Source of the DNA: Odontesthes bonariensis | Taxonomy: Eukaryota > Chordata > Actinopteri > Atheriniformes > Atherinopsidae | Assembly (NCBI RefSeq): GCF_027942865.1 | Contig: NC_134515.1 | Coordinates: forward strand, 15,043,227 to 15,107,226 | DNA: 64,000 nucleotides | Reading direction: 5' to 3' | The notes under the pieces: model-generated | What the model saw: only the letters and a program-made list of their open reading frames with translations | Told to the model about the DNA's origin: nothing | The model's database searches: none | Shown: in pieces, positions 2,995 to 29,039 of the stretch | Numbering within the stretch: position 1 is the stretch's first letter | Layout: every line of letters begins with the position of its first letter | Position numbers and translations under genes: made by a program

Positions 2995-3110
2995 TGTCAC
3001 ATATTATCATTTACCAGCTTGATTTGGATAGCCTCTGCTTTTTCCAAGCAAAGTTGTTCTTGTAATGGCAATGCCATGAAGACATTCCTTTAAATGCTTG
3101 GAGCACAATT

Positions 3111-3133
3111 CACAAATGAGTATGCAAAAAGAA
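3111..3133 (-). promoter_or_regulatory. Proximal promoter motif of copy A (shared by all three receptors)
   Basis: The block reads CACAAATGAGTATGCAAAAA on the plus strand, 117 bp upstream of the copy A start codon. Related sequence occurs at 13051-13072 and 20894-20915 upstream of B and C. The shared TATGCAAAA resembles the POU octamer ATGCAAAT. Function is inferred from recurrence only. Confidence 0.4.
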
Positions 3134-4196: not shown

Positions 4197-5180
4197 AAAT
4201 AAATTTGAAGTGATCTCAGCTGCCAGTTAGCATCCCAAGCAGAAATGCACCTAGCTTATCAGAACAAATCCAACAGTTCTTTTTTTTTTTTTAATTTTGA
4301 AGTCTCATTTAGCATACTTTATCATTGTTTTAGTCATTCATGTTTTTTCTGAGAGGTTAGTAATACATCTTTCTTTTATGTGACAAACTCATTACTACTT
4401 TACCCTGACTTCAGTGTTATAAATCAATAACACTCTGTAAGCTGTCATAAAGGAAACAATTAACTATAAAGACCAAAACTGTATTTTTTCTTGGTTGTGA
4501 ACTTATTGATTAAAAAGTCAGGCATTTTAATATTAGGGTCCATGTGCATGTATTCTTTTTGGAGCCACACTCAAATGGTCATTTGAGAAACTGCACCTAA
4601 TGAGAAACTAAACCTGTATTTAACCAGTTTGTAAGACTATCGTAAAATTACAAATCTCTTTTTTTAAGAGTGTTTTGTCCAAAACAAACAATGACTCAAT
4701 GTTTGCAGGTATGAAGCAATACCTGCAAACTGTTGCTTTATAAAGGCTTTAATTAAGTCAGATATACAACACACTCTTGCAGAAAAATGAAAGGTGGACA
4801 GGACAACCAATACTAGTCTTTTAATAAACAAGGTACATGCCTGCTGTATGTTAACTGATGCAAAACCCATTTGCTCTCTTTTTTCTGTTGTGGAGAAGAA
4901 ATTAAATAATGTTAATGTGAAAATCTGGTAAGATTCGACTCAACTTATCAATAATTAACACTGATAAATGTGGTTTTGATGTTTATTGAGTAATTATGTT
5001 GCCCTGTACTTTATTTTAAAGCTGTTAATAAATAATTTGCGATTTTAAAGATGAAAGTTTCAATAACACAATGACAAAGTTTTGCTGTAGGGGATAAGCT
5101 TTGAATGACTGAAGTAAGGATGCTGTTGAGAGATCACATGAGGTTGCAAGCAAATTAACACAAATAACTTGACTCATTCA

Positions 5181-5376
5181 ACCAGGTTACTTTGGTTTAT
5201 GCTAAAATGCTACATCCTCTTACAAATGAGCTCTGCATGGCTTCATCTTTGGCCACAAAGATCCTTTGAAAGAAGTTAATTTGCGATCAAACTCTGGATG
5301 TTGGCAGGTGAGGAGCACATGAGTTGGAGTCTCAGAATTTGAGTTTAAACTCTGGTTTTATAGGAAGAGAGATGCG
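5181..5376. promoter_or_regulatory. Shared non-coding block, copy 1, with a decayed rer1 exon 5 fragment
   Basis: First of three copies of one non-coding block, 2.2 kb upstream of taste receptor A. The core CTACATCCTCTTACAAATGA (5210-5229) is identical to 13569-13588 and differs by one base from 26909-26928. Similarity runs on through CATGAGTTGGAGTCT to CAGAATTTGAGTTTA (about 5331-5346) and TAGGAAGAGAGATG, which line up with the donor side and body of rer1 exon 5 (27037-27115). The splice-donor bases TTAC are missing here. The block is therefore a duplicated piece of rer1 intron 5 plus exon 5, the exon part now dead. Enhancer function of the core is inferred. Confidence 0.6.
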
Positions 5377-7529
5377 TTTTAGGGTCATTGGGTTATTAAA
5401 AAATAGTGTTTGGAAAAGTTATGTTTTAGTGCGAAAAAGTGAATGCTGTGACATATTTGTACTGTGACATTTGTTTACTTATTGAGGTAAAGTTTGACCC
5501 TATGAGTTGTTTTTTTCTCCCAGTTCATCTCACGCCTCAATTTTACCCTATCAAACCCAATTTTTAGTCAGAATTTCAAATCCAAGATGAAGCTTATAGA
5601 GATCTTCTGTGCATAGCCTTTTCAAGATATACATCCCAAAGAATCCATGTCAATGGAAGAAAGAGCTATCCTTTAATCAACAGGAAGCAGGTGGTGTAAA
5701 GAGCTTATGCACAGTGTTGTTTTTCATTAATTATTCAGGGTTTTTTGGATCAGAAATTAAAATAACTTTCTATGCAAATTTCACAAACATCTGCTCAGAG
5801 TGAGACCATACTGATATTCATATGCAATACATATATACTGGAGGAAAATTCAGGTGGAGGGCAAAATCTAGGGTTGCCCTTTTAGAAAACAAGACACCTA
5901 TATAATGACTGTGTAGTCTACGCTGTAAAATGTGTTTGAGTATCACTGTCCACAGTGTGTAGTGGATTGTAGATTCAGCTGAGTTTGGCTCAATAGAAGA
6001 AATGTCCCTTGTGACATTGTACAAAACACTAATGTTACATTACTGTACATAACAAATGAAGGTACAAAAGAGCAACTGATTAACTTATCTGACAACCTGG
6101 TACTTTGTTCATAAGATCTCATTATTCATTCAAAATCAAGGTCAATTTAGTAGACGACAGTCCTTAAGTACTTAAGAAACCAACAGAGATACTAATGTAA
6201 TGAATAATAGGAAGATCATTCATTTTTGATAACCCCCATTTTCGTCACCAGTCGTGAATTATCAACTCTGATGTCATACCCCAAGTGGTAACTACCCATT
6301 CATTACTGATTACTCCTGCTTTAGTTACTATTTTTCTATATACTTGGCAGTTATTCAGCAGATGCTTACTACTAAAGGATTTTATAGGGGAGGGCGAGGA
6401 CTGTAAGTCACGTGCCAATCAGATGGTTTGTGGGTCTGTTCCAGACGTCCCGAGCCCATAAAAGACACTGGACCCCACTTTGCCTCCAATGCGGTCATCA
6501 GTGTGTTAGTGTGTGTATGATAAATTTCACTATTTCACTGTATAGACTGTATTGCCGAAGAATTGCTTGATGACTGTGTGTGGCTAATGTGGCTTGTAGT
6601 GGGAAAGTGCTTTGATTAGTCACCAAGACAAGAGAATTGTTCTATGGGTGCAATGAATTTTTATTCTAAGTACTCACTCAATTACTAAATACCACAGGTT
6701 AACTGGCTTTAACCTGTGGTATTAACATTTCATAGGACTCACTTTCAGCACTCATTACTGTATATTTGGGCCAACCAGTGATGATGGCCCAGCCTCCTTT
6801 TTATTATGCACCTACTACTTGCCAGGGAAAAGCACCTTTTAAAGTTTCTCTAAGTTTATTTGTTAAGTTAAGTGCTACCTTGATGTGGTCGCAGTAATAT
6901 CTTAGCAACCTCCAAAAATTAATTACATAGATTACAATTATTATTATTATTTTACACCTACTCAACTGTTTATATGTTGCATTGTGTCTTAACTGCTTAA
7001 AATGAAAGAAACCACAACTGATCAATTATATTTAATTGAATTTATTTAACTGCTGAACAAGTTAATGTTGAAATTACAACACAAGGCTTAACAGCTGCTC
7101 TTGCACATATTGGGGATAATGTACCATCAATAAATCCACGAGTTTATCATCAGAATTTAGGTTATACAAAACCACAGAGATTATAGCATTAGCCTAATCG
7201 GTTGTATTCGATATAAATATCCTAAACTTATCTAATGACTTATTATCAGTGCATATGTTGTGAGGGGATTTTATCAATAAAAACATCTACATCTAAAAGA
7301 TTCTTCCCTTTCACCGATGGCTGACTGCACATTTTTAATGTGAAAGCGTACCTGAAAAGTACACAAGTGTTAATTAAAACTCAAATCAAAACAAAAGGGT
7401 AAAAAATAAACTACATACTCTTAAATCCTCTACTTCTGCAAAGCCCAGTTATTATCAGACAATCGAAAGCATTCATAAAGCTTTTAACCTGTTAGTCATT
7501 TCTTTAAAGTAGCACATATTTATAGGCAG
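5377..7529. other. Intergenic region between the copy B 3' end and upstream block 1
   Basis: No supported gene. A promoter-like patch at 6405-6480 has CCAAT (GTGCCAATCAG) and a TATA-like CCCATAAAAG 50-60 bp later, reading plus, possibly from an old LTR. A perfect 15-bp inverted repeat lies at 6688-6723. Sequence at 7150-7330 is similar to 14600-14790 downstream of copy C, including GGCTGACTGC(A/C)CAT, and marks the 3' flank of the duplicated unit. Confidence 0.5.
6688..6723. repeat. Perfect 15-bp inverted repeat (hairpin)
   Basis: AATACCACAGGTTAA at 6688-6702 and its exact reverse complement at 6709-6723 flank a 6-base loop CTGGCT. No T-run follows and nothing nearby is coding, so it is not read as a terminator. 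It may be the end of a foldback element. Confidence 0.7.
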
Positions 7530-10500
7530 CTACTGGCTAACAGTTTTGGTATAATTCTGAATGAGACCTTGGAAGTGCTGCGCTGTGTTTTTGTCGGCTT
7601 GAAAAATGATGATGTAACATTTTGGGAGGAAATACCACAATAAAAAAGAGTAGAGACTGGAGAGTACAGCCAGAGCGTTAAAAGTGTGTATGTACTTTCC
7701 ATGGTAAAGCATGCTCACAGTGGCAAAGACGATCCAGGTGAAGATCAGCAGGAAGAGGCAGAAAGTTATTGCTTTGGCTTCGTTGTAATTTTTTGGAAGG
7801 TCTTTTCCCATGTAGGAGAAAATAAAGCAAAGGCAGCACAATGACAATAGCAAAGCCAGAGAGCCAGATGTTCCTTGAAGATTTAGGTCACAACCAAGTA
7901 TGATTTTGTCTGCGTACCAGAAGGTGTCATTGTAAGGCTTGGGGGGGGAAATGGAATAGCCAATAGTAATCAAGATTGCCTGAATGATGAATGCCACAGT
8001 GATGAGCAGCCATTGGCCATGATATTTCATCCACAGATTGAGGAGTTTGGGGAACTTTGCAGCTATTTTGAAGATGCAAACAATTTGAAAAGAGCGCACA
8101 ACAAAACATGCAAGACACACTGTGTAGAACAAAAGAAATGGTAAAAATCTTAAGACACAATAAGAATCTGTGGGCCTATCGAAATAAAAGAACACACTGA
8201 GAGTACAAAGACAGAGGCAACTTAAAACTAGGAAGCACATTGGTCCCCCAGCAGACTTGACAACAGGTGTGTTGTAGTTGATGGCGAAGAGAACAGACGT
8301 GGCCAGAATGAGGCCCACCAAGGCTGAGGCCCCGACCATGATCACTATAGCACTATTGTCTGTGAATGGTATGTACTCCACCAGCCGCAGACTGCATGAC
8401 GTACTTCCATCAACAGACCATTCTGTGTCCTTACAGGTGATGCAGTTGTAGGGATCCTCTGTTTTACAGGGCATTGGGACACACAATCAACAAAGTTACG
8501 ATTAACTTCCAAAAGAGATCACTGTGCAGTTGTAAGAATAAAATGCCTGTACTGCTGTGCCTACTCTGTATGACAATGAGTGTAAATCACCTCAGACTTT
8601 AAACTTAAATGAGAAAGTCTACCACCCACGCAATCCTTTTACAGTCCACTTTTGTTTAAATTCAAGATTGAACAGATTTTTTTATTGGAAAAAAAATAGG
8701 TTGACACCCAAATTGAGTTTATCCAATTCAGTATTTCATCAAATGTGAATAATAGTACAGATCAGCCCTTCTATCCAAGCGTTTGATAAAAAACAGAAAA
8801 CTTGATTCTGTAGTTATATTTAACCCTGTGGAGATGACTGGCATCTGCATGTGTTTGAACAATGGCCAGAGCTGTATTTTGTTTTGTCATGCCAATGTTT
8901 GACCTTTAAATCTGAGTGAGGATTTGTGCTAAATTTGGACAAATTCCCTCGAGTCCATTCATTAGCCTGGACAGATCGAAGGAAAACATGAAAACATAAT
9001 ACCTCTGCACTCAGTCATGGCCGGGGGCATACAAAAGCTTAGAAGAATCAGCAGTAAATCAATACTGGCATTACTTCTTTTCACATTTTCTTCTTTTAAT
9101 GTGCAATCCTTTACCTGTGCTGTTGATATAAGTTCCATTTGGACAGAGTGTACATTTGAAGCAGCATGTATGGATTCCTTCTTGTTCTTTTGAATATCCT
9201 GCAGAACATTCTTTGGAACAAAATGAAGTCGGTACCTGTAGAAGACATGTATTAAGGAAAAAAAAAATAAAGGTAATATTGTAAAGGGCTGTGGTTCGTG
9301 AGATTTAAATATTTACATGTGCTCAGCTTTCTTTATTTCCAGACGTGTGTGCAAAAAAGAACATTAGATGTTATATCTAGACATACCTGTAAATTGCACC
9401 CACCATGATCTGATATTCTCTGGTTTGTTGATCATAGCTATTACCAAACATGTTTGTCCCATATGGTCGTGCAAAAGCTGATACAGTAAATTTACAAGAA
9501 ATGTATTGTGTAAACGTTTGATTGGAGGAGGCTGGAAACTATTTACCTTTCCATTTGCATGCCACTGGATTTTGGTGCTGTTGATGAAGAACTGGAATGA
9601 TGGGTGAAAATAATAAAAGCCAACCTCTTCTGCATCACCGCTGTGGTTCCAAAAAACAACTGAATAGGATCCAGACATGGGGTCTCCATTCTCATCAAAA
9701 TAAACACTCTGGTTTATAAGTGTGAAATTTGATCTCCTCAGCTCCGTTAAAACCTGTTGTTGCCACACAAAATTCAGATTACATGTTGGCTATGTGCCTT
9801 CAGGGGATCAGATTAATTAGGATGACTCTAATCTAAGTATTAGGTTTATGCAAACACAATTTGCATTACCCAACGGCACACAATAGTTATATCCTTTTTT
9901 ATTTTAATTGAACACACTGAACAGTTATATTTCTCATAGACTATACACAAATCAACCATAATGTTATGAGCATCTGCCAAATTATAAATAGGTTGTCCTC
10001 ATGCTGCTGAAAGAGGTCAAACCAATTAGGACATGGACAACGAATATCGATAAAGATAGTATCCTGGCTGGTACTTGGACACTAGCAATAGAGCCTTTGG
10101 GCCCTGTGAGTTGTGGAATGGGGTCTTTGTGGATTAGGCTAGCTTCCCCCATATGCCATGAGATCCCATCAGACTGGTGTCTGACTGCTGTGTTCATCGA
10201 GCCCTCCCTTAGCAGTTTTTACTGTGCTGTCCTGCTAGGGGAGGCTGCTACTAAAGGAAAGTTTGTTGCCATATGGAAGGTGTGATTGTAACGTAACATG
10301 ATAGTAACGAGATGAGCAGTGTCACTTTACCAATGACTGATCATAACGTCATGGTTGATAAGTGTATATTATGATGGATTTATGTGTACAAAAGAGTAAC
10401 CCAGTTATGGAAGTGCCTTGGAAACTGCACTTCTTAATGGCCATCAAGGTGCTCCTCCTGTCATAGCCAAATTAAGTAAGATTATAAAGAAATGTAGAGA

Positions 10501-12397
10501 AAATGACCCTATCTCTAACTAAGTACATGTTTTCCATTTAAGTTCATGCTCTCCAATGGTTTTTTGAATGTCTCCTGCAATAAGTCAAGATGTTACTTTA
10601 ATAGATTATGGTCCCATTTAAAGCAAAATAGACCGTGATTGAAAAGTCCCTGTCCTAGGTGTCCTATGGGAAAACATAGGTTCCCATTTTTGAAATCCAT
10701 ACTAAAGTCCATAAACAAATGGATGATATAGTGTTTACAATGGCCATCTTTAATGTACAGTCTATTATTATTGTGTAGAAGATGTGAGAAAACTCTTTGA
10801 TTCAATAACTAGTCAAACTTCTGTCAGCAGCAGAGAAAAAATAAGGTTTTTTTTTCGAAAGTGAAGGTCAAGTGTTTAGGAGGAACATTGAGCCATTCAT
10901 CCACTGATTAACTTTTGTTAATATTAATATCCATAACGCTGTCCCTGTGGCTCACATTTTCACTCCATCCCACATCATGAATGTTTGAATCATGTATTCA
11001 ATTAGACGAAAAACAAAATGATTTGTCACTTTTAAACCATTTAAAAACTATAGAATAAACTTTAAAGAGTATGATGGTAAAAAATAAATAAATGAGTTTT
11101 GTAGTATTTGTAGACTTACCATGTGTGGGTACACTGTGATACTGTTGTTACACTTGCCAGCTCCACATTGTAGCACAGCGTGTAAGGCATGGGCGATGGC
11201 ATATACAGCAGAATAAACAGGAAAAGAGAAAGACGGGTCTGCTGTGATGATATCTTCAGCACTAACGGTGCTGCAATTGCAAATCTGATTACAAAACATC
11301 TCTTGTTCTGCATTTTCACAGTGAGTGTGGGCTTTGGAAGAATAGATGAAATCACTGAAACCCGGTATTGTCATTTTTGGTTCAGCAACCCCGAGCACAG
11401 TTCCAATATTTCTGATTCCTTTTTCTTTAGGGAGCTCTTTATGTAGGGACCAGGCATCCCCTGCTATCCACACCTTGTTGGTGACATTTAGTTTTATGGC
11501 TGACTTAATGAGAGCTTCTGCAGTCCACTCAGGAGCAAAAACAATAATAATATTTACCCTAAATAACTCCATCTGTCTGAACATTTGAGGGTAATCTGTG
11601 TTTGGATTAAGGTCTTTGGTGTATGCCAGGCAAATATCAGTGTCCTTTATCTTCTTTATGAACAAGTCCAGACCATCTTTTCCATAATCCCCATCACTGT
11701 AAAGGAAAGAAACCCAGCGCCAGTTGAAGTGTTGCAAAATCTTAAAAACCACTTCTATGACATTTTTATTGGGATGCACCGTTCGTAAGAAAGACGGGAA
11801 ATTTAGTTTTGATGAGAGGACAGAACTAGCAGCTCCATAACTGATCTGTTAAAAAGAATAAAAAGAAGTCATCATTTTCAGTGGCAGTACATTTTCAAAT
11901 GGGAAGTTACTGAAATAGCTACTTACACATATGTATATAGTTTGAAACAGATTAAATACTTGTCTAATAAAAAACTAAATGTTAACAGGGTTCAGACCAG
12001 CTTGTTAATTTACCATAGGAATGAGATCCATCATGAAGAGTGGGGCAACGGTCAGTGTCTCAGTGCTGGTATAAGTGCCAACCAATGCTATCATTTTAGA
12101 TGAATTCCTTCGTGATGGTGATTCATCCCAAGGTTGGATGGAATCACTAACAAACCTGAGGTTGAAAATACCTGGAAAATTCTGTGTGTCTGAGCAGTGG
12201 TCAAATATTTCATAGCCAAGGGACACATTTGGCAGCAGGTTGGTAGAGTTATTGACTTCCTCAACAGAGAATCTCATCAACTGAAACCGTCGATAACTTG
12301 ACAGAATGAAACGCTGACTGTGGACAGAGGAATGAGAGTAAACAGTGTAAGATATAACTTTTAAAAGTGCTCACACTCAGCACAAAAAGTCAGTTTT

Positions 12398-12432
<35 letters not shown>

Positions 12433-12820
12433 CCTGTTAACCCTGTCCAGTTTTGGACTCCTGAATAGATTTGATTACTCAAAAGACTGAAGTCCTTTGA
12501 TAAGACAGTAATTCACTTAAGTGGTTTCAAAGAGATTTTCTAACAACTCTATTTGCTATTTTAGGCAAAACTATTAAAGAGTGTGATTCAGTTTAATTGT
12601 GAAAAGGCATCAACCAAGACTGAATAACTCACCGGGAGCAGATGATGGTTTCAGGTCTGTCAGGATTGTCAGTTCCACTGACATGATGAATGTCGAAAAG
12701 TCCACCAATCAAATAATCCCCCCCTAGCTCAAACTCTGAGGGTGCAACAGTGCATTCACTCAAGGCGTGCTGAAGACATCCCAGTAGATACAGATGAGCA
12801 AGAACCCGTTTCACTGTCAT
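7530..12820 (-). CDS. tas1r2: Type 1 taste receptor, tas1r2-like copy B (complete)
   Basis: Complete T1R-type class C GPCR. Exons in transcript order: 12633-12820 (188 nt), 12014-12317 (304), 11120-11845 (726), 9547-9753 (207), 9115-9235 (121), 7530-8458 (929 with stop). They sum to 2475 nt, 824 codons plus stop, the usual T1R length. Residues 1 to about 24 are a signal peptide, then a Venus-flytrap domain to about 475 (GDYLIGGLFDIHH; PMISYGAASS at the exon 2/3 join; SFPVYSAVYAIAHALH), a cysteine-rich exon at about 476-515, and seven helices from about 535. Class C marks are TPVVKSAGGPMCF, VVRSFQIVCIFK and LPKNYNEAK; the tail is LPKCYIIIFQ followed by IQNYT, as in T1Rs. Intron 3 carries a decayed Tc1-like element. 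The upstream region holds a non-coding block shared with copy A and rer1 intron 5. Exons 1 to 3 contain tracts nearly identical to copy C, exon 6 to copy A. Subtype (T1R2 rather than T1R1) is inferred from tandem expansion. Confidence 0.93.
9942..10368. mobile_element. Decayed Tc1/mariner-like element in intron 3 of receptor B
   Basis: Imperfect terminal inverted repeats bound the element: TATACACAAATCAACCATAA at the left and, at the right, the reverse complement of TATACACTTATCAACCATGA. The ends are TA..TA as for Tc1/mariner insertion. Inside are stretches resembling a common teleost Tc1-type sequence (CTGCTGAAAGAGGTCA, GAGATCCCATCAGA). At 427 bp with no long open frame it is an internally deleted, non-coding relic. 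Confidence 0.7.
12398..12429. repeat. Poly-T tract in intron 1 of receptor B
   Basis: An almost pure run of about 28 T in the intron between exons 1 and 2; absent at the matching place in copy C. Possibly the poly-A tail of a minus-strand retroelement, but no element body was recognised. Confidence 0.7.
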
Positions 12821-13050
12821 AGTTACGGTTTGCCACTTTTAACATGAACTCTAATAGAACTAATAGCATTTGACTTCGGATGGTTGAGCTTTCGTAATCT
12901 TTTTCACAAACTGAGAATCACTGTGGTGTCATAAATGCAAGGCAGAAAGGTGCAAGGTGTGGCTGCAGATTGATGAGCCTCCGTGATCCTTTTGATGAAC
13001 TGCAGTTGAACCAGGTGTGCTAAATACACAGGTAACGGTTGGAAGAAAAC

Positions 13051-13072
13051 TTACAAATCAGTATGCAAAAAT
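13051..13072 (-). promoter_or_regulatory. Proximal promoter motif of copy B
   Basis: TTACAAATCAGTATGCAAAA lies 231 bp upstream of the copy B ATG. It matches the copy A and C blocks despite poorly aligned sequence around it. The greater distance here comes from about 110 extra bases between motif and start codon. Confidence 0.4.
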
Positions 13073-13346
13073 CATCTAATCTGCTGCTTCTGAGTTCCTT
13101 GGATATAAACTCACAATATATGAGAGCAAGTCTGATGCCTCTGCCTTCAGTTATTTTCCTGTCTCGATGAACTGCAGTTTTTAATCTATAACCAAACGTG
13201 ACAATATCATTGAGAAATAGAAGGATCTTCTACATGGTATGGTGTGCATTTTGAGAATGCCTTGTGAAGTCATGTACAACTCTATTCAGGCGGGAGGCAT
13301 GTATAGGAAATATATGTGTATGTACATGTATATACATATGTAAGTG

Positions 13347-13354
13347 TATGTATG

Positions 13355-13392
<38 letters not shown>
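13347..13392. repeat. (TATG)n/(TA)n microsatellite
   Basis: A run of TATG units followed by about 17 TA units. Simple repeat; the Tyr-Ile open frames over it are artefacts. Confidence 0.9.
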
Positions 13393-13395
<3 letters not shown>

Positions 13396-13538
13396 TTCTG
13401 TGTGTTGTAAAAGTATGGTAAAAATATGCTACTACATTGTGATAGTTTTTTTTTTTCATTCTTGTCTTTCAAATAATAGATAATTAAAAATAATTTTTCT
13501 GCACGATAGTTTTCCTACAGGGATGAGCTGTGAATTAC

Positions 13539-13745
13539 AACCAGGCCTATTTGGTTTATGCTAAAATTCTACATCCTCTTACAAATGAGCTCTGCATGAC
13601 TGCATTTTGGGCCACAGATCATTTGAAAGAAGGTCATTTGCAATCCTTCTGTGGGTGACGAGGGTAGGTGCGCAGAACATGAGCTCGAATTTCACTTGAG
13701 TTTGACGTCCTTCTTTGGTTTGCAGGCAGAGTTAAAAGGATGGGT
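13539..13745. promoter_or_regulatory. Shared non-coding block, copy 2, with a decayed rer1 exon 5 fragment
   Basis: Second copy, 0.7 kb upstream of the copy B start codon and in the same orientation. TTTGGTTTATGCTAAAAT and the 20-base core at 13569-13588 match copy 1 almost perfectly. The following ATTTGCAATCC.TCTGTGG.TGACG matches the rer1 intronic copy better than copy 1 does. Beyond CATGAGCT the sequence resembles rer1 exon 5 only loosely, with small insertions and deletions and no open frame. Confidence 0.6.
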
Positions 13746-15903
<2,158 letters not shown>

Positions 15904-18900
15904 CTACTGACTAGGTGTGCTGGTATAACTCTGAATGAGACTTTGGAAGTACTGCTGTGTGTTTTTCTGGGGTTGAAAAATGATGATGTAACATTTTGGC
16001 AAGAAATACCAAGCCAAAAAGGAGTATAGACTGCAGAGTACTGCCACAGCATTAAGAGTTTCAATGTACTTTCCTTTGTAAAGCCTGCTCGTCGTGGTAA
16101 AGCTGATCCAGATGAGGATGAGTAGGAGTAGGCAGAAGGTTATCGCTTTGGCTTCATTGTAATTTTTTGGGAGGCTTTTTCCCATGTATGAGAAAATAAA
16201 GCAAAGACAGCACATTGATGAAAGTAAAAAATATGAGCCAGATAATGCTTTGATGCTATAATTGCACTTGAGTATGATTTCTTTGTGAAAACATGTATCA
16301 TTGTAAGGTTTCAGGGGTTCGATGGAATAGCCAATAGTAATTAAGATTGCCTGAATGATGAATGCCACCGTGATGAGCAGCCATTGTCCGTGATATTTCG
16401 TCCACAGATTGAGGAGTTCGGGGAACTTGGCAGCTATTTTGAAGATGCAAACAATTTGAAAAGAACGCACAACAAAACATGCTATACTAACAGTGAAGAA
16501 CAAAAGAAATGGTAAAAACCTTAAAACACAAGAAGCAGACGTGGGCACACCAAAGTAAAAGAACACACTGATACTACACAGACTGAGGCAGCCTAAAATT
16601 AGGAAGCACATTGGTCCCCCAGCAGATTTGACAACAGGTGTGTTGTAGTTGATGGCGAAGAGAACAGACATGGCCAGAGAGAGGCCCACCAAGACCAAGG
16701 CCCCGATAATGATCACTATAGCACCAGCATCTGTGAATGGTATGTACTCCACCCGCCGCAGACTGCATGATGTACTTCCCTTTGCAGACCACTCTGTGTC
16801 CTTACAGCTGATACATTTGTAGGGATCCTCTATTGTAGACAACAGTGGGACACAGTCAAAATTAAGGTTAACTTCAAAAAGAGATCAAACAGCAGTATCA
16901 TGCTTAATATTTGACACTGTATTCCCCTGAGCATTCACATCTTTGTAAACTTGTCTTGTAGCTTACATCCTCAGGCCACATGCACTTGAGCTAATTGTAA
17001 AAGGACAAATAAACCACTAAAGTAATCGCGCTACAGTATATATCCATGTTGTTCCAGACTCATGAGATACTGTACGTGGTAAAGACCATGAAAGAATGTA
17101 ATGGGTTGACACTCGTGTTTAGTTTATCAAATCCCTCTCATATTTGCAATCCTTTACCTGTACTGTTGATGTAAGTTCCTTTTGGACAGATAGTACAGTT
17201 GAAGCAACATTTGTGGGCTCCTTCTTGCTTTCTTGAATATCCTTCACGACACTTTTCAGAACAAACTGAAGTAGGCACCTGTGCAAGACATGTATTGAGC
17301 AAAAAAGTAAAGGTAATTTAATGTTAAAAGGGCTACGGTTAATAAGACAGATTTATCCCATTCCGTTTAGCTTTTTAAATTTCTTAATGGGTTTGCAAGC
17401 ACCAACACTGTAATATATCTAGAAAGATTCCATCCACCATTCGCTGATATGCCTGATATTGTGGTTTGTTGGTTATAGATATCAGTAACCATATCCTCCT
17501 TTGGGTTAGGGTTAGGGTTCACAGCATTCACACCCTCCAACATTATTAAATTTACAAGGTAAACTTTTGATATGAAAAAAACCCCAAAGTGCTTACCTTT
17601 CCATTTTCATGCCACTGAATTTTGGTGTGGTTGATGAAGAACTGGAATGGTGGGTAGAAATAATAAAAGCCAACCACTTCTGCATCTCCACTGTGGTTCC
17701 AGAAAACTATTGAATAGGATCCAAACGTGGGGTCTCCATTCTCATCAAACTGAACACTCTGGTTTAAGAGTGTGAAATTCAACCTCTTCAGTTCCTTTAG
17801 GACCTGTTGTCGGCACACAAAGTTTCGGATTAAGTTATCATCTCCATTGCTACTTGCAATTCTTGTGCAATACTTCATCATGTTCATTTTGTAAGTTACA
17901 TTTCCATGTAGAGTAAGATGGATTCTAAAGTAGAATTTGTGTGCAGCTAAGGCAAACTTATATTTGAAAAGTTGCAACCCTGTTGGCATGTGTAGTTTCT
18001 GCTGTACATAATCAGATCCATGCTTGCTCTAAAAGTCTAGTTACCAAAAACCAAAATGGAGTCAAAATTCAAGGCTTCAAAACAACAAAACCCAAACTAA
18101 TGGACAATATGACGTTTTCACCCACAACAATTAGTATGGATAGGTTTTCCCACACCATCTGAGCCAAAAGAACAAGATAAGTTTGTTTTAAAGTGTTTAA
18201 GCTGCACCTGAGGCTTCTGCTCTCTGTCTGACCATTAATCAATGTTTTCAACAAGTTGGATCGACCGCTGTTTTTAACTCAATTCAATAAAATCTTTCTT
18301 ATATAGTGCCTAATCACAAAAATATTATCTCAAGGCATTTCAAAGATAACACAATACCACGTTTTTTGATATGAACATTTATGGACAAACAAGACGAGAA
18401 AGACTGTTTGTTTGGTGCAAGTTTGAGTAGGCCTACAACACTGCTCTGTAGGCTTACACATTTAGAAAAGTGATTTTAAGCGGCTTTTGTATTACAGAAT
18501 CATTTTACACTCAGTATGCTAATAAAAGTCGTTATAGCTATGTGAAAATGAGGTGAGAAAACGGTGACTGTATGAGGACTATGATATGGAACTATACAAT
18601 CTGATCAGTGTGAACTAGTTTTAGTTTCCTTTGCAACGTGTGTCCTTACAACCCGGCCGACATCATGAGTGTTTGAATCATGTATTCAGTAAACAAGAAC
18701 AGGGATTCATTGTTTTTCTAAGCTTTCAAATCATTTTTGCATTTCAGCGAAAAAATGGGTTACATGAGTTGTGTAAGTATCTGTAGACTTACCATGTGTG
18801 GGTACACTGTGATATTGTTGTTACACTTGCCAGCTCCACATTGTAGCACAGCGTGTAAGGCATGGGCGATGGCATATACAGCAGAATAAACAGGAAAAGA

Positions 18901-20776
18901 GAAAGACGGGTCTGCTGTGACGATATCTTCAGCACTAACGGTGCTGCAATTGCAAATCTGATTACAAAACATCTCTTGTTCTGCATATTCACAGTGAGTG
19001 TGGGCTTTGGAAGAATAGATGAAATCACTGAAACCCGGTATTGTCATTTTTGGTTCAGCAACCCCGAGCACAGTTCCAATATTTCTGATTCCTTTTTCTT
19101 TGGGGAGCTCTTTATGTAGGGACCAGCCATCCGCTGCTATCCACACCTTGTTGGTGACATTTTGTTTTATGGCTGACTTAATGAGAGCTTCTGCAGTCCA
19201 CTCAGGAGCAAAAACAATAATAATATTTACCCTAAATAACTCCATCTGTCTGAACATTTGAGGGTAATCTGTGTTTTGGTCAAGGTCTCTGGTGTGTGCC
19301 AGGCAGATCTCAGTGCCGTTTATCTTCTTGATAAACTTGTCCTGGGCATCTCTTCCATAATCATCATCAATAAAAAGGAAAGAAACCCAGTGCCAGTTGA
19401 AGTGTTGCAAAATCTTAACAACCAGTTCTATGACATTTTTGTTAGGATGCACCGTTCTCAAGAAAGAGGGAAATGTATTTTTTCTTGAGAAGATAGAACT
19501 AGAAGCTCCATAGCTGATCTGTTGAGGAGAAAGATAAGTTGCCATTACTTTTTCAGCATTTTCAAATATCAACTGACAAGAAGATTAAAAAAAATTGGCA
19601 ATGAGCAATGCTTACACGCAGACGCACACATATTTATTTGTTTACAAAAAAAATCCTCCTTACAATGAGGCCCAATAAGTATTCTGTTGGAAAGACTAAA
19701 CACTTCTTGAATACCCGTTTTATACCCAATCCTGACGCCCTCACTTCCCTGAAGTTAATCTGCTAATTGTAGAATCTTTCAGAATGGTATTACTTCTACA
19801 TTCTATGAATATTAATTTATTTTCCTCTCCAACACTTTTCCTTCTGTCATTTTTGTTGCAAGCATCACATTTGAAATCTGCTTATGTTTTCTAAATACAA
19901 TGAGGGAGGTCAAGGAATACTAGAGATAATATTATTTATTTTGTTTGGAATATCTTTAAAGAGCATCATTTTATGTGATGATATTAGCAAAATGTTAACG
20001 CAGTTTAGGCCTGCAGGCAGATTTACCATGGGGATGAGATCCGGCATGAAGAGCGGGGCAACACCCAGCGTCGCGGTGCTTGTGTAAATGCCAACCACGG
20101 CTATCGTTTTAGACGAATTCCTTCGTGATGGTGATTCATCCCAAGGTTGGATGGTGCCATTAACAGACATAAGGTGGAAAATACCTGGAAAATTCTGTGT
20201 GTCTGAGCAGTGGTCAAATATTTCATAGCCAAGGGACACATTTGGCAGCAGGTTGGTAGAGTTATTGACTTCCTCAACAGAGAATCTCATCAACTGAAAC
20301 CGTCGATAACTTGACAGAATGACAGGTTGACTGTGGACAGAGGAAGGAGAATGATGCAGTGTCGGAAAAGAAGTTTAAAAACTATTTGTACAAACTGTCA
20401 ATTTTGGGCCCTTAATTTAAGAGCCACCAGGACTAAAGTGATGAAAACTTGGATGTCCCATAACAACTCCAAAATTTTGATGGTTTAACAGAAATTTGCT
20501 AAGTAGCTATTTAAGACAAATAATCTCAAAGGGGTTTGTTCAATTCGTTTCTTCGTGAAAAGGCATCAACCAAGACTGAATAACTCACCGGGAGCAGATG
20601 ATGGTTTCAGGTCTGTCAGGATTGTCAGCTCCACTGACATGATGAATGTCGAAAAGTCCGCCTATCAAATAATCCCCCCCTAGCTCAAACTCTGAGGGTG
20701 CAACAGTGCATTCAGTCAAGGCGTGCTGAAGACATCCCAGTAGATACAGATGAGCAAGAACCCATCTCACTGCCAT
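15904..20776 (-). CDS. tas1r2: Type 1 taste receptor, tas1r2-like copy C (complete)
   Basis: Complete six-exon T1R gene, the copy nearest rer1. Exons in transcript order: 20589-20776 (188 nt), 20027-20330 (304), 18793-19518 (726), 17597-17803 (207), 17158-17278 (121), 15904-16829 (926 with stop); total 2472 nt, 823 codons plus stop. Phases match copies A and B exactly. The product has a signal peptide, Venus-flytrap domain (GDYLIGGLFDIHH, ISYGASSS, SFPVYSAVYAIAHALH), cysteine-rich linker (HKCCFNCTICPKGTY) and seven-helix core with LPKNYNEAK and LPKCYIIIFQPQKNT. Exon 6 uses a TAG acceptor where A and B use CAG. The distal two thirds of exon 3, all of exon 1 and part of exon 2 are nearly identical to copy B, while the start of exon 3 and the transmembrane exon differ clearly. 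Those differences would change the ligand-binding lobe, so different tuning is likely but not shown here. Confidence 0.93.
18276..18345. repeat. Fish SINE/LINE tail fragment in intron 3 of receptor C
   Basis: AATTCAATAAAATCTTTCTT, ATATAGTGCCTAATCACAAA and TCTCAAGGCATTTCAAAG match a motif very common in teleost repeats (ATATAGCGCCTAATCAC, CTCAAGGCACTTTACA). Only the tail is recognisable. Confidence 0.55.
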
Positions 20777-20893
20777 AGTTACGGTTTGCCACTGTTAACA
20801 TGAACTCTAATAAAGAACTTGCCTTTGACTTTGGATGATTGAGTTTTCGTTATGTGAGATGTCACAAATACATGACTGTACTAGTTGGAGAAT

Positions 20894-20915
20894 TTACATA
20901 TCAGCATGCAAAAAT
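20894..20915 (-). promoter_or_regulatory. Proximal promoter motif of copy C
   Basis: TTACATATCAGCATGCAAAA lies 118 bp upstream of the copy C ATG, almost the same spacing as in copy A (117 bp). It has the same octamer-like core GCATGCAAAA. Confidence 0.4.
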
Positions 20916-21094
20916 TGTTTTATCTGATGCTGCTCGACATTGTGATGGACACAGTATTCGAGAACTTGTTTGCTCAAACCATCCTTTGGCACGGCAATAA
21001 AAAGAAACTTTTTTTCCCTTCCCTTTCTCCTCATGTAATCCTAGGAGCTTGAAAATGGGAAACTTCTTCTTAAGGTTTAAGAAGGCTTATAAGT

Positions 21095-21260
21095 AGTTGG
21101 TCATTCACACCAACTGGTTTAGAACTGAACAAGCCGTTCGGGTTAGAGGTGAGAGGTCTTTAAGAACCAGGAAAAAGACCTTATTGCCCTTATTACTCAA
21201 CTCAACAAACATTTTAGGATTACCACCACCTGGACGACTGAGAATCTACAGACATATCCT
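21095..21260. repeat. Probable interspersed repeat fragment
   Basis: CACCAACTGGTTTAGAACTG, GAGGTCTTTAAGAACC and GGACGACTGAGAATCTACAG resemble a retroelement-derived sequence that I recall as frequent in fish genomes. The open frame is broken. Family not assigned. Confidence 0.4.
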
Positions 21261-21631
21261 CCGCACACAAATAATGTGAGACATAATTAAAGCCATTCAT
21301 CAGGAGTGAATGCAAGTTTGCTGGGCACACATGATTTATTGTATGTCCTATAGTTCTTCTCCACGAATACCATCAAAATATGAAGCCAAAACACATATGT
21401 ACTGTTCGAAGGGACATATCCTCTTTAATAGCATTTGGAGTGAAAAAAAAAAAAATTACACTTAAGTTATTAAAATCAAGTTCTTGTTTTCAACTGTAGC
21501 ACAAGAAAATAACATGCAATCCATGAAAAACATTAAATTCATCAGTTCTAGAATCCAATTTACCAGTTTAGCTTTCATCAACTTCAAATGAGATGGATTT
21601 TAACACTTGCAAACAGAATGGTGGTTGGATG

Positions 21632-21666
<35 letters not shown>

Positions 21667-23215
21667 AAAAATGATCTCAAAAAATTATATCTTAAAATAT
21701 ATATATACTGTATATACATAAATCCAGACAACCCTTTGAAACACAAACTTTTTACAGGAAAATGTTTTGATCCCTTACTACAGTGTTGATCAAAGGTGAG
21801 TAATGACAGATTCCCAGCATTGTGATAGGAAAAGAAAATCAGAAGGTTCATAGAAAAGAACGTGTGATCACCACCCACTTCATCCATTTGTTATAATAAA
21901 AGCTCTCAATCTTTGTTTTCCTATGTTTCCTCTGCAAAAGAAAGAGAACAACAGTTTGTTTGGAATGACTATATTTACCTTTTTTTTTAAAAAAAATTTC
22001 AGAATAAACACAGATTGTAAAGGACAACAACAGCTTGTCTAAACAAACCAAATTAACCTCAGTCTCTGAAACACAGATGGGTAAATGTTCTTGAGATAAA
22101 ACGCTCCTTGGGATAAAGCGCGTTTGCTCGGCCGTCATGTCAGACTGACCCCGTTCCGACTTAAACTTGAATACTTGTTGAGCACTTTAGAGACCCCCCC
22201 CCCCACCCCCGCCCCTCCAATTTATTTGTACACAGATCCCTAATAATAATAATAATAATAAAAAAAATAATAATAATTTGTTTAAAGAGGTGCTCAGCAG
22301 AACAATACCCAATCTCTATAATGGCGCAAAATGGATTTAGGTACAGGAGACGTGGGATTAGTAACACCCTCTTTGAATTACGCCCTCAGTAATGTGGCAG
22401 AGGGCTAAAGATTTCAATGTGGTCATAACAATCATCCATCTTGATGACTGTTACGCTAGTAAGATGATGCAAAGAGTTTTGTGGCCAATTAATGCTGAAG
22501 AATAAGAAAAAAAATATTAAAAATTAAAAGTAATTCTGGCATTTTGCTGTTTTCCAACCATCATGGATGCACATTTAGATGAAATGTCACTAACTTCTCT
22601 TCAATGTCTTTATTTAGTAAAGAGAGCAACTGCCTTACGGCACTTGTTAGTCAGAGCAGAACATTTTTTAATCAAAAGATTATTTAATGCGAGGACTTTT
22701 CATTAGATTTCATCTTACATCTAATCACATTCTTTTGCAACTTAACCTAACGGCTTTAAATATAACGCTCAATTTGTTACAAATAGGTAGGAACATCGTA
22801 TCAATCAAAACTTGGCAGATTGGTAGAGGGAGATGCACTGGAATTACAATCATCGAAAGAACATAAAATTTGAAAATTTACTGCAATTCTTTTAAGTTTT
22901 GTTCCATCTTTGACTATTCACTCAACTAATGGTCTTAAAAAGGCAAAATGCATCTAATGTGCAACTTAATGCAGACCAATCTCTCCAAACAAACAAACAA
23001 ACTTTCACAGGGAAGGCAGTATTTCCAGACTATTTTGATCCATGCTGCTCACATCCTCATCCAACACTGTGAACCATAGATCAAAACTTTGTGTTACTGT
23101 CCCGCTCATAAAAAATAAAAAAAAAAAAGGAAATAAATCAAATCCTGATCAATCCCCCATTAGCTGTGACCAATACATATCAAATGAGACAGAGATGAAG
23201 GATAAGTTGGAGTTT

Positions 23216-26200
23216 TTAACTAGCAAAAGTTTTCCCTGTGTCGTCCTTGCCTTTATATGTCCTCTTCCCGTGTGTGAAGGGTAGGTATCTGTACTTGATC
23301 ATATGCTAGAAAAGGCGGGCGAGAAAAAGAGCATTAGTAACAGGATGAGAAGGATGAAACATTTCCACCAACTGCATCCATGTGAAGAAGTTGCACAAAT
23401 GGGTAAAAATATTCAAAAACATTGTCACTGTAATGCCATGCAGTTGGTAAAATGCTCCTTCAAAGACAAAGAACATTATGAATGTTCAAATGTTCAGCTT
23501 TAGCTAATATTTGTTCAAGGATTAGGTTAGAATAACTTTTTATCTCAAAATGACTGTATATGGTGTTGTTATAGTATCCAGAGTCCCCCCAGGATTTTTC
23601 CACTCAAATTTAAGACTTTTTAAGACCACATCCAATGAAATTTAAGACCAACCTCGCACCTATTCTGGCATACATTTATGAAATAATGCAAAAGAAATCT
23701 GTCAGAATAACACAGGGACAAATAACAATTACTTCTTTTTAATAAAGAATAAAGTGATGAATGTCCAGCTGTTTTTGTGCTTTTGTTTAGACTTTCATCA
23801 AGCATGACCACAAATCCAGACGCCTTATTGACCTGGTCGGTCAGTTGTTTGGTGATGAAAGGGGCCAGACCAAACTTGGTAATATAGGCAGTCTTGTTGC
23901 TCCCACATGTGAAAGTAGCCGCGATCTTCGAGTCGGGGAACATCACTTTGAAGAGCTCGCTTATATTTTCATTTGACGTATAGGAGTGGTGGTCCGATAT
24001 CGTCTTTAGTACCCACGTCACCTCTGCCTTAAGAGTTGGCGTCGAGCCACAAAAAGCTCGTATGTTACCTGGCTGTGTGGGCTCGGTGCTGCTGGCAGCC
24101 GAGGTGACTGTTGAGGTTGGCGTCGGGTTTGCGGCGCAGAACTGGGCTATGGGTGCCTGCTTCTGTGTAGCTGCTAAGCATGCTAAATGTTTAGCACTCC
24201 AAGGCCAAATGACCCATTGTGCCGAGCTTGAATTTTTTTCGGCACAGACGGCACTGAGCCTCACACTCATTCCCCGGTACAGCCTGAACCCAGTCATATT
24301 TTGATTCATTGAGCCACAGTGGATTAAATCTGCACTTGCCCATCCCAAAGCTGCTGCGCGAGCGACCGCATCGGTGGGTCAGCGGCGTAACTGTGCACAC
24401 TGTAGCGTAATGTGGCGATCTAGTAAACTTTGAAATAAGGATTTTCCGACCGCGTAGTTGAAACAGTGCATTAATGCCACCTCGTGTCGGAGATCGATAG
24501 TCAGAGAGAGAAAAAAAAAAAATCATTTTACAACGCAACATTCCATGTTTTGTTTTTTTGTCAGTGTTTTACTAAGTATACAGTTATGTTGTTGAGCTGT
24601 ACTATCATGCAGATAAGAAAGGGAAAAATTAAGACCTTTGAGAATGAAATTTAAGACTTGTAAACAAAATTTAAGACCTTTTCAAGGCCTTAATTTACGG
24701 TTATCAAATTTAAGACTTTTTCAAGTTTTTAAGACCCCTGAGTATCGTTTCTAAGATGTTATCCAGTTCAGGTGCATAGATTCTTGTCAGTAGCTACAAA
24801 TTTTTTTGTATAACCTACAGAACACTTTTGATGGACAGCAATGTCTTTCATTACACAGCGATTGTTAGTCCAGTGAAGCCACAGTGTCATTGTATATAGT
24901 GCATGTGCTGCATATCTTTCAGTGTTTTACCTTAATCTGCCTCTTCATGGTGATGCAAAAGAGCATGATGAAGTACATTACAAGTATAGGCCAGAACACT
25001 GGCACATTGAAGGCATCAAAAAATGTGCAAATCATGGCGATGACGATGCCTTTTGTCGCCGAATGCCTGGCAAGAATAGAAACAAGACTTGAGTTAAATG
25101 CGACCACATCACATCCTCAACAGTGAGCATTGTGCAATCTCATTGAATACATTTATTCAGCAGCAACAATGTGAACTACACAAACAGTCACGAATAATGA
25201 CATTAAATGTTTAAGAAAAAGGCGGTGTGGCAAACGCAGAGGCAAAACCTCACCCAATAAGTACATTCTGGTCATAATGGACCATTTGATTGCATGGGAT
25301 CCATAATATCATTGTCGATATCCTCCGATGGCAGAAACTGCATTTTGATTGGTAATATCCAAAACTATAGCCGCTTTCGGACTGTAGGAACCTTTGGCAG
25401 TTCTAATAACCTTTTAATCCGCGGGGCCGTTTTCTCCCGTGTTCGGACATACAGGAACTCGGGGCTTTCTCCCTTAGTTCCTATAACTATTTAGCTCCTT
25501 CTCCGAGGTCGGGTCTTTTCATGGTTCTATAGAACGAATCTGACGGAGGTGTGTGGTGGTCGGTAGCTACGCCCCATGTCATGCTATCAAGGCTGAAATG
25601 TCTCCTCATATGACACAGACACAACCTGCGGGTGTTTAATAAGTTAAACTTACACTTTGTCTCCTTTGTCTGCAGCAATTTGCTCTCCTTTCTTCCTTCA
25701 TGAAATGAAAAATCGTCTCCTGACTCTCTCTGTGAGCTCTTCCAGCCTCGATATTAGACGCCTGATGTGATTGTCCATGATTAATATCACCATCATGCAG
25801 ACCATAAACACGGTGGCCTCCCCGCTCTCCATATTAGCTTCTTTGTGGTGTTTTTTCTTCTCTCCTTACTTTCTGTTTTGTTTTTGAATGTAGCGCTAAA
25901 CGGCTAACGGCTAACACGTCACTGACGCAGACGGCTGCGCGCGCCGCATCAGTCCCTATCAGGTCCCGACTCATGTGCGAATGCAGACTAAAACAGAAGG
26001 ACAGTTATCAGAACGAAATTCGAGTAGGACAGTTCTGATAACTACGTTCCTATAACTACTCTGTCCGAAAGCGGCTCATGCTAACCATGCATAAATATGC
26101 TTAGTAAAGTACTAGGGTGTTATCAAAACAAGTAAAAGTGTAATAGAAGTCTGATTTAAAAAAAAAAAAAAAAGCCGTACAAAATGTCTGGAGCCATTTA

Positions 26201-28176
26201 GACATCCAAAAGGGGACTCTTACTGATAATGTGACAACTTCAACCGTCTTTCACTCCAGCCTGAATACAGACACAGTGGATGACTTGTGACATTATTTGA
26301 GTAAGTAAAGCAGAAATTTTTATGGCCGAAATCTCAAAAGTCTTATGCAGATATTGAACTGGAACTGCGTAATTGTTGACAGGCCCTAACAGAGAAGGCG
26401 AGACAAACGGAGCACAAGGAGCAGATGAAGAAATCAGAAGCAAGCACATCGAGACAGAATTGTCAGTCCATTTAAACCTTGATTCTGAAATAAATAAATA
26501 AAGAGGGAAGCACTAATATTTCCATACATCAAACAAAAGCCAGCTGTATGACTGGTGGGAAGCTACTTTTACATCATTCCTGCTTTAGTAAACCAGATGG
26601 TGCAGAATTTGCATAACCACATGCAAGGCAAAGCCTTTCATAAATTTCAAAAACACTGCAACGCAGCACTGTGGCCTTAATGCAAAACAGATAAGTTTGT
26701 CAATGTAACCTTTTACATAACTGCTCAAGGACAGTCAACGGTTGTTGTGAAGGTTTTTCCAGCCATACTAACAAAAATCAGACGGAAAAGCCTCTATTGA
26801 AAAGATTTTAAGAAATGTGTTACAGACATCACAAGAATGCACGATCACTTCGTGTCACAAGGAAATAAACAGCTTCCACGCAATTATCTTTGGTTTTATG
26901 CTGAATAGCTACATCCTCTTTCAAATGATCTCTGCTTGACTTGATTTTGACCACACAGGTATTCCACAAGAAAATAATTTGCAATCACTCTGTGGATGAC
27001 AGTGACAGATGGCCAGACCATGAGCTGAACTCTTACCAGAATTTGAATTCAGGCAACCTTCTGATGAAAGGGCGGAACTCCTCGTTCTGCTTGGTAGGAA
27101 GGGATGGGCCCTCATCTACAAGAGAAATAGGTTACACAGTCACTTAGAGTGGTTTCAATATTCTGCAGCAACAATAGCCAAATAAAAGGACAAGACTTGG
27201 TAGCAGAGATATTTATTTATTTATTTTACTTTGACCGAGTTGCAGCTAATCCCGAATAAACAAGCGTCAAAAGGTACACCCTTTTATCAGGTACACAACA
27301 ACAACAACAAAAGACTTCACTGATGTAATTTTGTCAACTTGCCTTCGTCAAGCAGAGAGGGATCCACTTTTGGCGATAGAAACGCAATGAACAGATTGAG
27401 ATGGTAGATTCCCAAAGCGTATGTTACAATATACCACCCCTGAAAAAGAGTGAAAAAATCCTCACATTAAAAGGGTTTCTGGACAGACGGTTAACAAAGA
27501 TAATACTTTATAAATAAAAGGTGCACACACTAATGAGCATAGCATTGAGCATTTGTATTCAAATCAATCTTTCATCATGGATAAATAGTTGCCAAAACAA
27601 AGTCACTGCAGGCTGGTACAACAGCACAACATTGAGTAGGAGTGAATGAAAGTCTGTTTTAAAACAGTAAATGGGCTTTTAAAACTTAAAATTTGATGGC
27701 GGCATGTGAATTATTCAAATTTAGTTTAATTTTCTGTCTTTCCTGAGGAAGCAACAATATAGTAATTCAGAAACTAACACACACACAGACAATTACCTGT
27801 AGTATGTACACTCTGATCATGTAGACAGCAGTAAATAGTAGAGTGGCTGCCCATCGCACCGCATAGAATGGTGTTGACTTGTCAAGCCATGACTGATAGA
27901 CCTGTTACAATAATAAAGAGAAAGAAACCGTGCCACCAGAGACGGAGAGAAATGCTAGACACAACTTCAGATGAAACCATGCATCGCCCAAAATTGTGTC
28001 AAAGCATCAACCCATTGACTATAGGTGACTAACTCTATGACAAAACAATTATGTGATATTATAGACATGAGTGATCTGAGTAATAGGCACTTTACCTGTC
28101 CAATCCTTGTGAAGAAGGCAGCGACTACAGATGGTTTCCCATGGATAGACTCCCCAACACTGTCCCCTTCTGACAT
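23216..28176 (-). CDS. rer1: Rer1, Golgi-to-ER retrieval receptor (complete)
   Basis: Rer1 is a four-helix membrane protein of the early Golgi that returns escaped ER membrane proteins and unassembled subunits to the ER. Coding exons in transcript order: 28096-28176, 27797-27901, 27343-27439, 27037-27115, 24931-25066, 23216-23305; total 588 nt, 195 codons plus stop, against about 196 in mammals. Recognisable stretches are [95 protein letters not shown] and the basic tail [15 protein letters not shown]. The intron after 27343 begins GCAAGT, a GC-AG intron. Intron 6 holds a hAT-like element, intron 5 a TIR element and a block shared with the taste receptor flanks. A non-coding first exon with donor at 29465 is likely. 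Confidence 0.96.
23579..24740 (-). mobile_element. Degenerate hAT-like DNA transposon with transposase fragment
   Basis: An 1162-bp insert in rer1 intron 6 flanked by AGTATC on both sides (23573-23578 and 24741-24746). The ends are weakly inverted (CAGAGTCC / CAGGGGTC) and dense in the subterminal motif AATTTAAGAC at both ends. On the minus strand a broken frame encodes [19 protein letters not shown] (zinc-finger-like N-terminus, near 24200-24260) and [17 protein letters not shown] and [12 protein letters not shown] (about 23850-23950), which I associate with a hAT-type transposase family in fish. A frameshift lies near 24200 and most of the catalytic region is missing. hAT normally makes 8-bp duplications, so the 6-bp flank leaves the superfamily open. 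Confidence 0.6.
25370..26075. mobile_element. Non-autonomous TIR DNA transposon in rer1 intron 5
   Basis: A 706-bp element bounded by inverted repeats GCCGCTTTCGGAC (25370-25382) and GTCCGAAAGCGGC (26063-26075). The subterminal sequences also pair loosely (GGAACCTTTGGCAGTTCTAA against GTTCTGATAACTACGTTCC). It is more GC- and CpG-rich than its surroundings and carries no transposase frame. Superfamily not assigned; no clear target-site duplication seen. Confidence 0.65.
26889..27036. promoter_or_regulatory. Shared non-coding block, copy 3, in rer1 intron 5
   Basis: The intact-context copy sits in rer1 intron 5, directly against the exon 5 donor at 27036, and 6.1 kb upstream of taste receptor C. 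It contains CTACATCCTCTTTCAAATGA (26909-26928) and TTTGCAATCACTCTGTGGATGACAG, spanning the stretch shared with the copies at 5181 and 13539. An intronic stretch that stays alike across three paralogous sites is a candidate enhancer; a plain duplication remnant is the alternative. Confidence 0.55.
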
Positions 28177-29039
28177 TCTGGTAGTGAAAAAAATAAAACT
28201 AACTAAATAAATCTGATTAATGGTGACAAGGATGTAAGCTACAAAGGTGGCTGCAGCAGATTAATATGATGTGGTTGGTTGTTATCTAATATGTGCATGT
28301 CTAGTATCTAAAAAAAAAAGAGCCATTATCCTAGTTTGAAATGAAAAAAAAAATTAACTAAATAAACAAACAATCATATACATACATACATACATGTAGG
28401 CCTAATTAGTCAGCTATGTCTTATAGGTACTAATGACAAGTGCACTGACAGATCAGAGTGAATTTCATGTATTTAAATTACATCCGTAGGAAAAATGTCA
28501 TAGATAACCAAGTATATCATTGCATCTCATATAACTAAAGTAAAAATGTCTAGTAACTTCTGTTAAACCAGAGGTCCCATGTTTGGCTACTAAAAAGGTA
28601 TGGATTTTTTCAGTATTTCTTGTCTACTGAGTGGATCATGGATTTTGTGAGTATCGTTGGCCACTAAGACTACAATGTCTGCTGCAGCTTAGGGTCATGT
28701 TTTTAATTGTTTACCCAGCACGACTTGCTACCAGAGAAATCACAATACATTGAGTATTTTAACAGTAAATATTAGCAAAAGAATAATCATACCGTGTTTG
28801 ACTGTTCCTGGTTTTGGCTAGCTAGCAATGACTGCATTCGTAGCTAACAAGCTTGAGGTTTTCGTGTTAATAGACACGTATCTTTCAAACAACTTCACTG
28901 GCAAACTATAACAAGGATTTAACTCAATACTTTATGTGCTACTGCTGTTTTGTCTGTGACTTTGATTTATTTGCATTAGCTTATAAAATAGCCACATAAA
29001 TGGCTAACTAGCTATGTAGGTTACCCTTTGGCCCCCAAT

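Follow-up and report, generated by a model that had tools for sequence, protein, structure and literature searches.

In genomic regulatory blocks, a regulatory element can reside within an intron of an unrelated neighbouring gene, and this neighbour may be lost after duplication while the elements stay near their target (PMC2745767). Here we describe a comparable arrangement in a stretch of 64,000 nucleotides from Odontesthes bonariensis (C15:15043227-15107226 of the 945-Mb genome, hereafter the window), whose minus strand carries three T1R2-type taste receptor genes and rer1, and in which a short non-coding block recurs upstream of the receptors. We propose, with a probability of roughly 0.6, that this block regulates the tas1r2 genes in cis, most likely as an enhancer, and that its ancestral copy is the one located in a rer1 intron.

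As in genomic regulatory blocks, an element presumably serving tas1r2 sits within an unrelated neighbour, the exons of which are decayed or no longer detectable at the duplicate copies and were dispensable after duplication. The published blocks, in the part of that work considered here, involve arrays of highly conserved elements, developmental genes and whole-genome duplication (PMC2745767), whereas at our locus a single short element was duplicated in tandem and its presumed target is a sensory receptor; the neighbours are T1R receptors instead of developmental regulators, and one distal element stands out instead of a long array. A second parallel is offered by the RH2 opsin locus control region of zebrafish and medaka, where a tandem array of fish sensory receptors is likewise accompanied by distal and gene-proximal elements (PMC4634787). 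As presented in the portion of that report used here, the opsin region is a single shared enhancer, while we found four copies of a putative enhancer for six genes and not one distal element for the whole array. The transcriptional network of taste-receptor cells is described as little known, and a ATGCAAAT-type (Oct-type) site has been reported within 300 bases of the TAS1R4 reading frame (PMC10781636). The portion of that report considered here mentions neither such a site in tas1r2 nor a distal element, and we observed TTTGCAT in front of all six tas1r2 genes. Regarding gene order, rer1 and gpr153 are among the genes adjacent to T1R2 in zebrafish, medaka and fugu, and rer1 lies beside T1R2 here too; the comparison of these three fishes, in the part drawn on here, covers gene order only and not non-coding elements (PMC7014666). 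The rer1-T1R2 neighbourhood and regulatory elements in bystander introns were therefore already known, and the distal T1R element is what appears to be new: no such element was found in the literature searched, a body from which most subscription-journal papers were absent.

The receptor array comprises six T1R2-type genes, from left to right G-3, G-2, G-1, G1, G2 and G3, with rer1 at the right end. The first three are further receptors of the same type to the left of the window, and for the wider scans 60 kb on the left and 40 kb on the right were joined to it (164 kb). An earlier note on this DNA had reported three non-coding blocks in the same orientation, each upstream of one receptor. We found all three where it placed them, as well as a fourth copy to the left; blocks and cores are listed without strand:

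5179..5342: block A, 2.2 kb upstream of G1 (minus strand)
13538..13705: block B, 0.7 kb upstream of G2 (minus strand)
26878..27046: block C, 6.1 kb upstream of G3; situated in a rer1 intron, with an overlap of about 11 bases with the fourth detected coding exon
C15:15024227-15024390 (outside the window, ~19 kb to the left): block D, the fourth copy, 2.5 kb upstream of G-3
5191..5237: core of block A, 47 bases, alignment columns 14-60
13550..13596: core of block B, differing from A at 1 of 47 bases
26890..26936: core of block C, 47 bases

The distances for A, B and C are those of the earlier note, from its block starts to the start codons, and they hold. Its reading of the core was also correct: CTACATCCTCTTACAAATGA occurs unaltered at 5210 and 13569 and with one change at 26909, and three matches were obtained in none of 100 shuffles of the window. 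All four copies share one orientation and one locus. A BLAST search of the genome with block A returned four matches (of four candidates scored), all at the array. Very common words are skipped in this DNA search, which recovered three of the four copies and missed B when block C was the query, so its sensitivity is incomplete. The search with a 27-base core pattern, which is independent of these limits, gave four matches at up to three mismatches in 945 Mb, none on the other strand and none in a reversed control. The single-locus occurrence that the earlier note had named as support for its reading is borne out, with no scatter of matches over the genome. Within the 164 kb, a four-copy profile run at full sensitivity detected nothing further below E 0.02, and each copy was still recovered, at E 8e-35 to 4e-20, by a profile built without it. 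The next profile matches (0.021 and 0.088) are inverted matches within B and A, and the best elsewhere reaches 0.67. Block B (window 13569-13633), and less clearly A, carries a second, inverted core word (GATCATTTGAAAGAAGG compared with GCTCATTTGTAAGAGG); block B is also flanked by simple-repeat tracts (window 13305-13434 and 14073-14220) that form an inverted pair. The claim that a block precedes each receptor stands for the three in the window and fails for the whole array, where four of the six (G-3, G1, G2 and G3) possess one.

The origin of the blocks can be traced to rer1, of which six coding segments were detected between 28176 and 23219 on the minus strand (Pfam Rer1). Block C adjoins the splice donor of the fourth segment and lies in the intron that follows it; the earlier designation as intron 5 fits only if rer1 has one non-coding first exon. 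The relevant exons are the following:

27036..27117, minus strand: rer1 fourth detected coding exon; decayed copy beside block D at C15:15024378-15024453
24931..25066, minus strand: fifth of the detected rer1 coding exons (Pfam Rer1), of which A, B and D show no remnant
23216..23330 (left end approximate), minus strand: rer1 sixth detected coding exon; no remnant at A, B or D

At D, the similarity extends through the fourth exon (nhmmer E 4.7e-9, 75/82 bases), and the dead copy is still readable as SLPTMQNKEFRP (tblastn E 0.16 alone), with its donor GT lost, as judged by eye. The alignable part of this exon shrinks to roughly its final 11-14 bases at A and B. For coding segments 5 and 6, located between block C and G3, none of the three duplicate positions (A, B and D) yielded a match at E < 1, and the same was true of segments 1-3. 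The intronic block is kept at three of three duplicate positions (E 6.4e-14 to 9.6e-18), where about 165 bases, mostly intron, persist, compared with none of three for exons 5 and 6. Since a decayed rer1 exon stands in the right place beside D, we consider it near certain that the blocks are pieces of this exon and of the start of the following intron, copied together with tas1r2 by tandem duplication. This agrees with the earlier proposal that the block was carried along with the receptor copies from an ancestral form inside rer1.

What has persisted around the receptors was examined by cutting the interval 20790-28364 into 100 overlapping 150-base tiles and comparing each with the intervals that lie upstream of the five remaining receptors. 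Six tiles matched at E < 0.01, four at the block and adjoining exon and two promoter-proximal, in keeping with the earlier observation that the surrounding intergenic DNA is far more diverged. Between the fourth rer1 coding exon and the receptor promoter, this tile search detected nothing besides the block at the three duplicate positions.

We compared the divergence of the block with synonymous distances (dS) between the receptors, taken from exons 2-4 (conversion led us to omit the last exon, and exon 1 did not enter the comparison). These are 0.68-0.90 for pairs among G-3, G1, G2 and G3, except G2/G3 (0.17). The 47-base core shows distances of 0.02 for A/B, 0.11 for D/A and D/B, 0.19 for C/A, 0.22 for C/B and 0.28 for C/D, and it is only the core that has changed more slowly than the neutral expectation (0.02-0.28 vs 0.68-0.90). 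Over the whole block, the distances are 0.20 for A/B, 0.36 for C/A, 0.41 for C/B and 0.49-0.51 for the pairs with D. Thirty-five of the 47 core columns are invariant in the four copies. As the core was picked after the alignment had been viewed, a column-permutation scan test was added, and none of 20,000 permutations of the block reached such a cluster (p 5e-5). On a star tree, the chance of at least 35 invariant columns is 3e-9 at a pairwise distance of 0.6 and 6e-3 at 0.3. Moreover, A and B differ at 1 of 47 core sites vs 28 of 115 sites outside (Fisher p 0.0005). Based on these comparisons, the core is very probably under constraint, and clear constraint appears limited to it, perhaps together with ATTTGC(A/G)A at columns 100-107. 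The block behaves as non-coding DNA, being mostly intronic or intergenic and with some indels between copies that are not multiples of three.

A piece of rer1, made up of one coding exon and the beginning of the next intron, was duplicated with tas1r2, after which the exon decayed and the core survived; according to our model, the core was kept by selection for regulating the receptor below it. We ascribe its survival to receptor regulation because the rer1 copies at A, B and D are dead, so that rer1 splicing cannot account for survival there. The core would bind transcription factors and work with a promoter-proximal element upstream of all six receptors. We infer taste-cell specificity from the target genes only.

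The proximal element contains TTTGCAT, present 134-249 bases before the start codon in 6/6 receptors. Its copies in the window are:

3110..3130, minus strand: proximal element of G1 (TTTTTGCATACTCATTTGTGA); TTTGCAT at -134 from the ATG
13051..13071, minus strand: proximal element of G2; TTTGCAT at -249
20894..20914, minus strand: proximal element of G3 (two mismatches); TTTGCAT at -136

The conserved stretch around TTTGCAT fits TTTTGCATACTSATTTGTRA with at most two mismatches in five of the six receptors, the G-2 form being shortened. In the genome, this 20-mer is exact at three places, all in the array, and one mismatch adds three more, including G-3; at two mismatches there are 76 matches in all vs 25 in the reversed control, many of them of one repeat-like type. 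Two ATGCAAA sites also lie roughly 100 and 135 bases before the extrapolated start of the tas1r1-like gene, near which no block was found below E 0.5 in the 30 kb searched. TTTGCAT is an octamer-type site and resembles the Oct-type motif described upstream of TAS1R4; sites of this kind are thought to be recognised by the taste-cell factor Pou2f3/Skn-1a, according to the portion of the TAS1R4 report considered here (PMC10781636). The word (C/G)ATTTGT(A/G)A is common to core and proximal element in three of four block-promoter pairs, which is suggestive only because 23 of 300 shuffles of block B matched the G2 proximal region equally well. A wider word chosen afterwards, ATTTGNAA, occurs once in A, three times in B and twice each in C and D vs 0.08 expected per block, and two or more such words are present in 0.6% of 168-base windows.

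Several observations weigh against a regulatory role of the block. The upstream DNA of G-2 and G-1 yielded no block in the full-sensitivity profile search, the best match there being E 0.44 with block C alone. Beyond the core, comparisons with D show the block to be close to neutral (columns 61-100 of C/D reach 1.05). Furthermore, the dead rer1 exon at D is still about 87% identical to the live exon over about 47 bases (about six differences, by eye), so unconstrained DNA can also stay similar at this locus. Near-octamer sites inside blocks A, B, C and D number 1, 2, 1 and 3 (at most one mismatch, two octamer forms) vs about 0.5 expected each, an excess that is at most weak, the copies being homologous and not independent; therefore, the Pou2f3 link rests on the proximal element. 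Finally, gene conversion takes place in the array and could contribute to the likeness of A and B. G1 and G2 have nearly identical last exons (window -542 to 300 and 7533-8375), with a synonymous distance of 0.04 compared with 0.83 in exons 2-4, a contrast due to gene conversion. The low dS of G2/G3 in exons 2-4 is best read as conversion too, because, apart from the block, only short pieces of the upstream DNA of this pair can be aligned once the first 90 bases are passed.

Considering these points, the block could be a functionless, neutral relic of an old duplication unit, left undecayed by chance or through conversion. This would be compatible with its origin as a duplicated rer1 fragment, with the conversion just described, with the dead exon still recognisable beside D and with the near-neutral state of most of the block beyond the core. 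However, the same core is retained at all three duplicate positions, with no other DNA detectable up to the receptor promoter, and its 35 invariant columns are improbable under each of the calculations given above. In addition, conversion would not be expected to homogenise 47 bases alone and leave the adjoining columns diverged. We therefore regard a neutral relic as unlikely, though it is the alternative that fares best.

If the block were an insulator, a boundary or some other element of chromatin organisation, keeping the receptor units apart or looping them, this would account for the single orientation and for the location of three copies between neighbouring receptors and one at the array end, but no copy is found in two of the five inter-receptor intervals. 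An enhancer is preferred because of the position upstream of receptors and the coexistence with a proximal element, and the insulator appears to us a less probable explanation than the relic.

A transcribed element, either a distant non-coding first exon or a structured RNA, is improbable to a still greater degree. The splice-donor-like GTAAGA is present on the receptor strand in three of four cores, but the fourth, in rer1, reads GAAAGA and thus lacks the GT, on which ground we rejected a distant first exon using this donor. A structured RNA is likewise unsupported: the consensus fold, at only -4.4 kcal/mol, is negligible, and nothing in the window reached an Rfam gathering score. Membership in a dispersed repeat family, suggested by several similar copies within one window, can be set aside at the sensitivity used, given four copies in 945 Mb at one locus, one of them with a rer1 exon.

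The receptors themselves look intact: each of the six has a start codon and a signal-like first exon, and their exons 2-6 are free of stops over the aligned stretches. The genes in the window are as follows, with start codons at 2994, 12820 and 20776 for G1, G2 and G3, respectively:

1..2994, minus strand: receptor G1, tas1r2 type; last exon extends out of the window to -542
7530..12820, minus strand: receptor G2, tas1r2 type; 7tm_3 and ANF_receptor; best solved relative medaka T1r2a
15904..20776, minus strand: receptor G3, tas1r2 type

G2 was typed directly: the best solved relative of its exon 3, which matches Pfam ANF_receptor, is medaka T1r2a (E 6.8e-102), and its last exon matches Pfam 7tm_3, giving the domain composition of a T1R2-type receptor. 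The other five were typed by similarity to G2. A genome search with the last exon gave 42 matches, made up of the six array genes, one match on the same contig at 41% identity, which we took for tas1r1, and more distant relatives. The latter include a large class C receptor array on C14 at about 14.6-14.9 Mb, probably V2R/OlfC on our assumption. G-2 and G-1 form a recent pair (synonymous distance 0.10), and to the left of G1 lies the last exon of a seventh tas1r, decayed and interrupted by in-frame stops (C15:15041985-15042554, window -1241 to -672). The gene to the left of the array, which we take to be gpr153-like, would be another likeness to zebrafish, medaka and fugu. It contains a 1177-aa open frame (L007:2336-5866) with no Pfam match, presumably resembling a tyrosine-recombinase retroelement. 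At the other end, the last detected rer1 intron holds a 252-aa open frame (window 23620-24378), transposase-like by eye and also with no Pfam match.

Altogether, this locus amounts to a natural experiment, in which part of a housekeeping gene was copied with a receptor, its exons decayed and a 47-base intronic core was kept at each recognisable copy. The search for a tas1r2 switch is thereby narrowed to a stretch small enough for direct testing. More tentatively, and going beyond what we consider probable, the core may be a tas1r2 taste-cell enhancer whose home in the rer1 intron ties rer1 and tas1r2 together across teleosts, and of which four of the six receptors gained a private copy. If so, G-2 and G-1, which are devoid of the block, would be expected to differ in expression or to rely on the copy of a neighbour, and the presence of the core in the rer1 intron would offer a possible reason for the published neighbourhood of rer1 and tas1r2.

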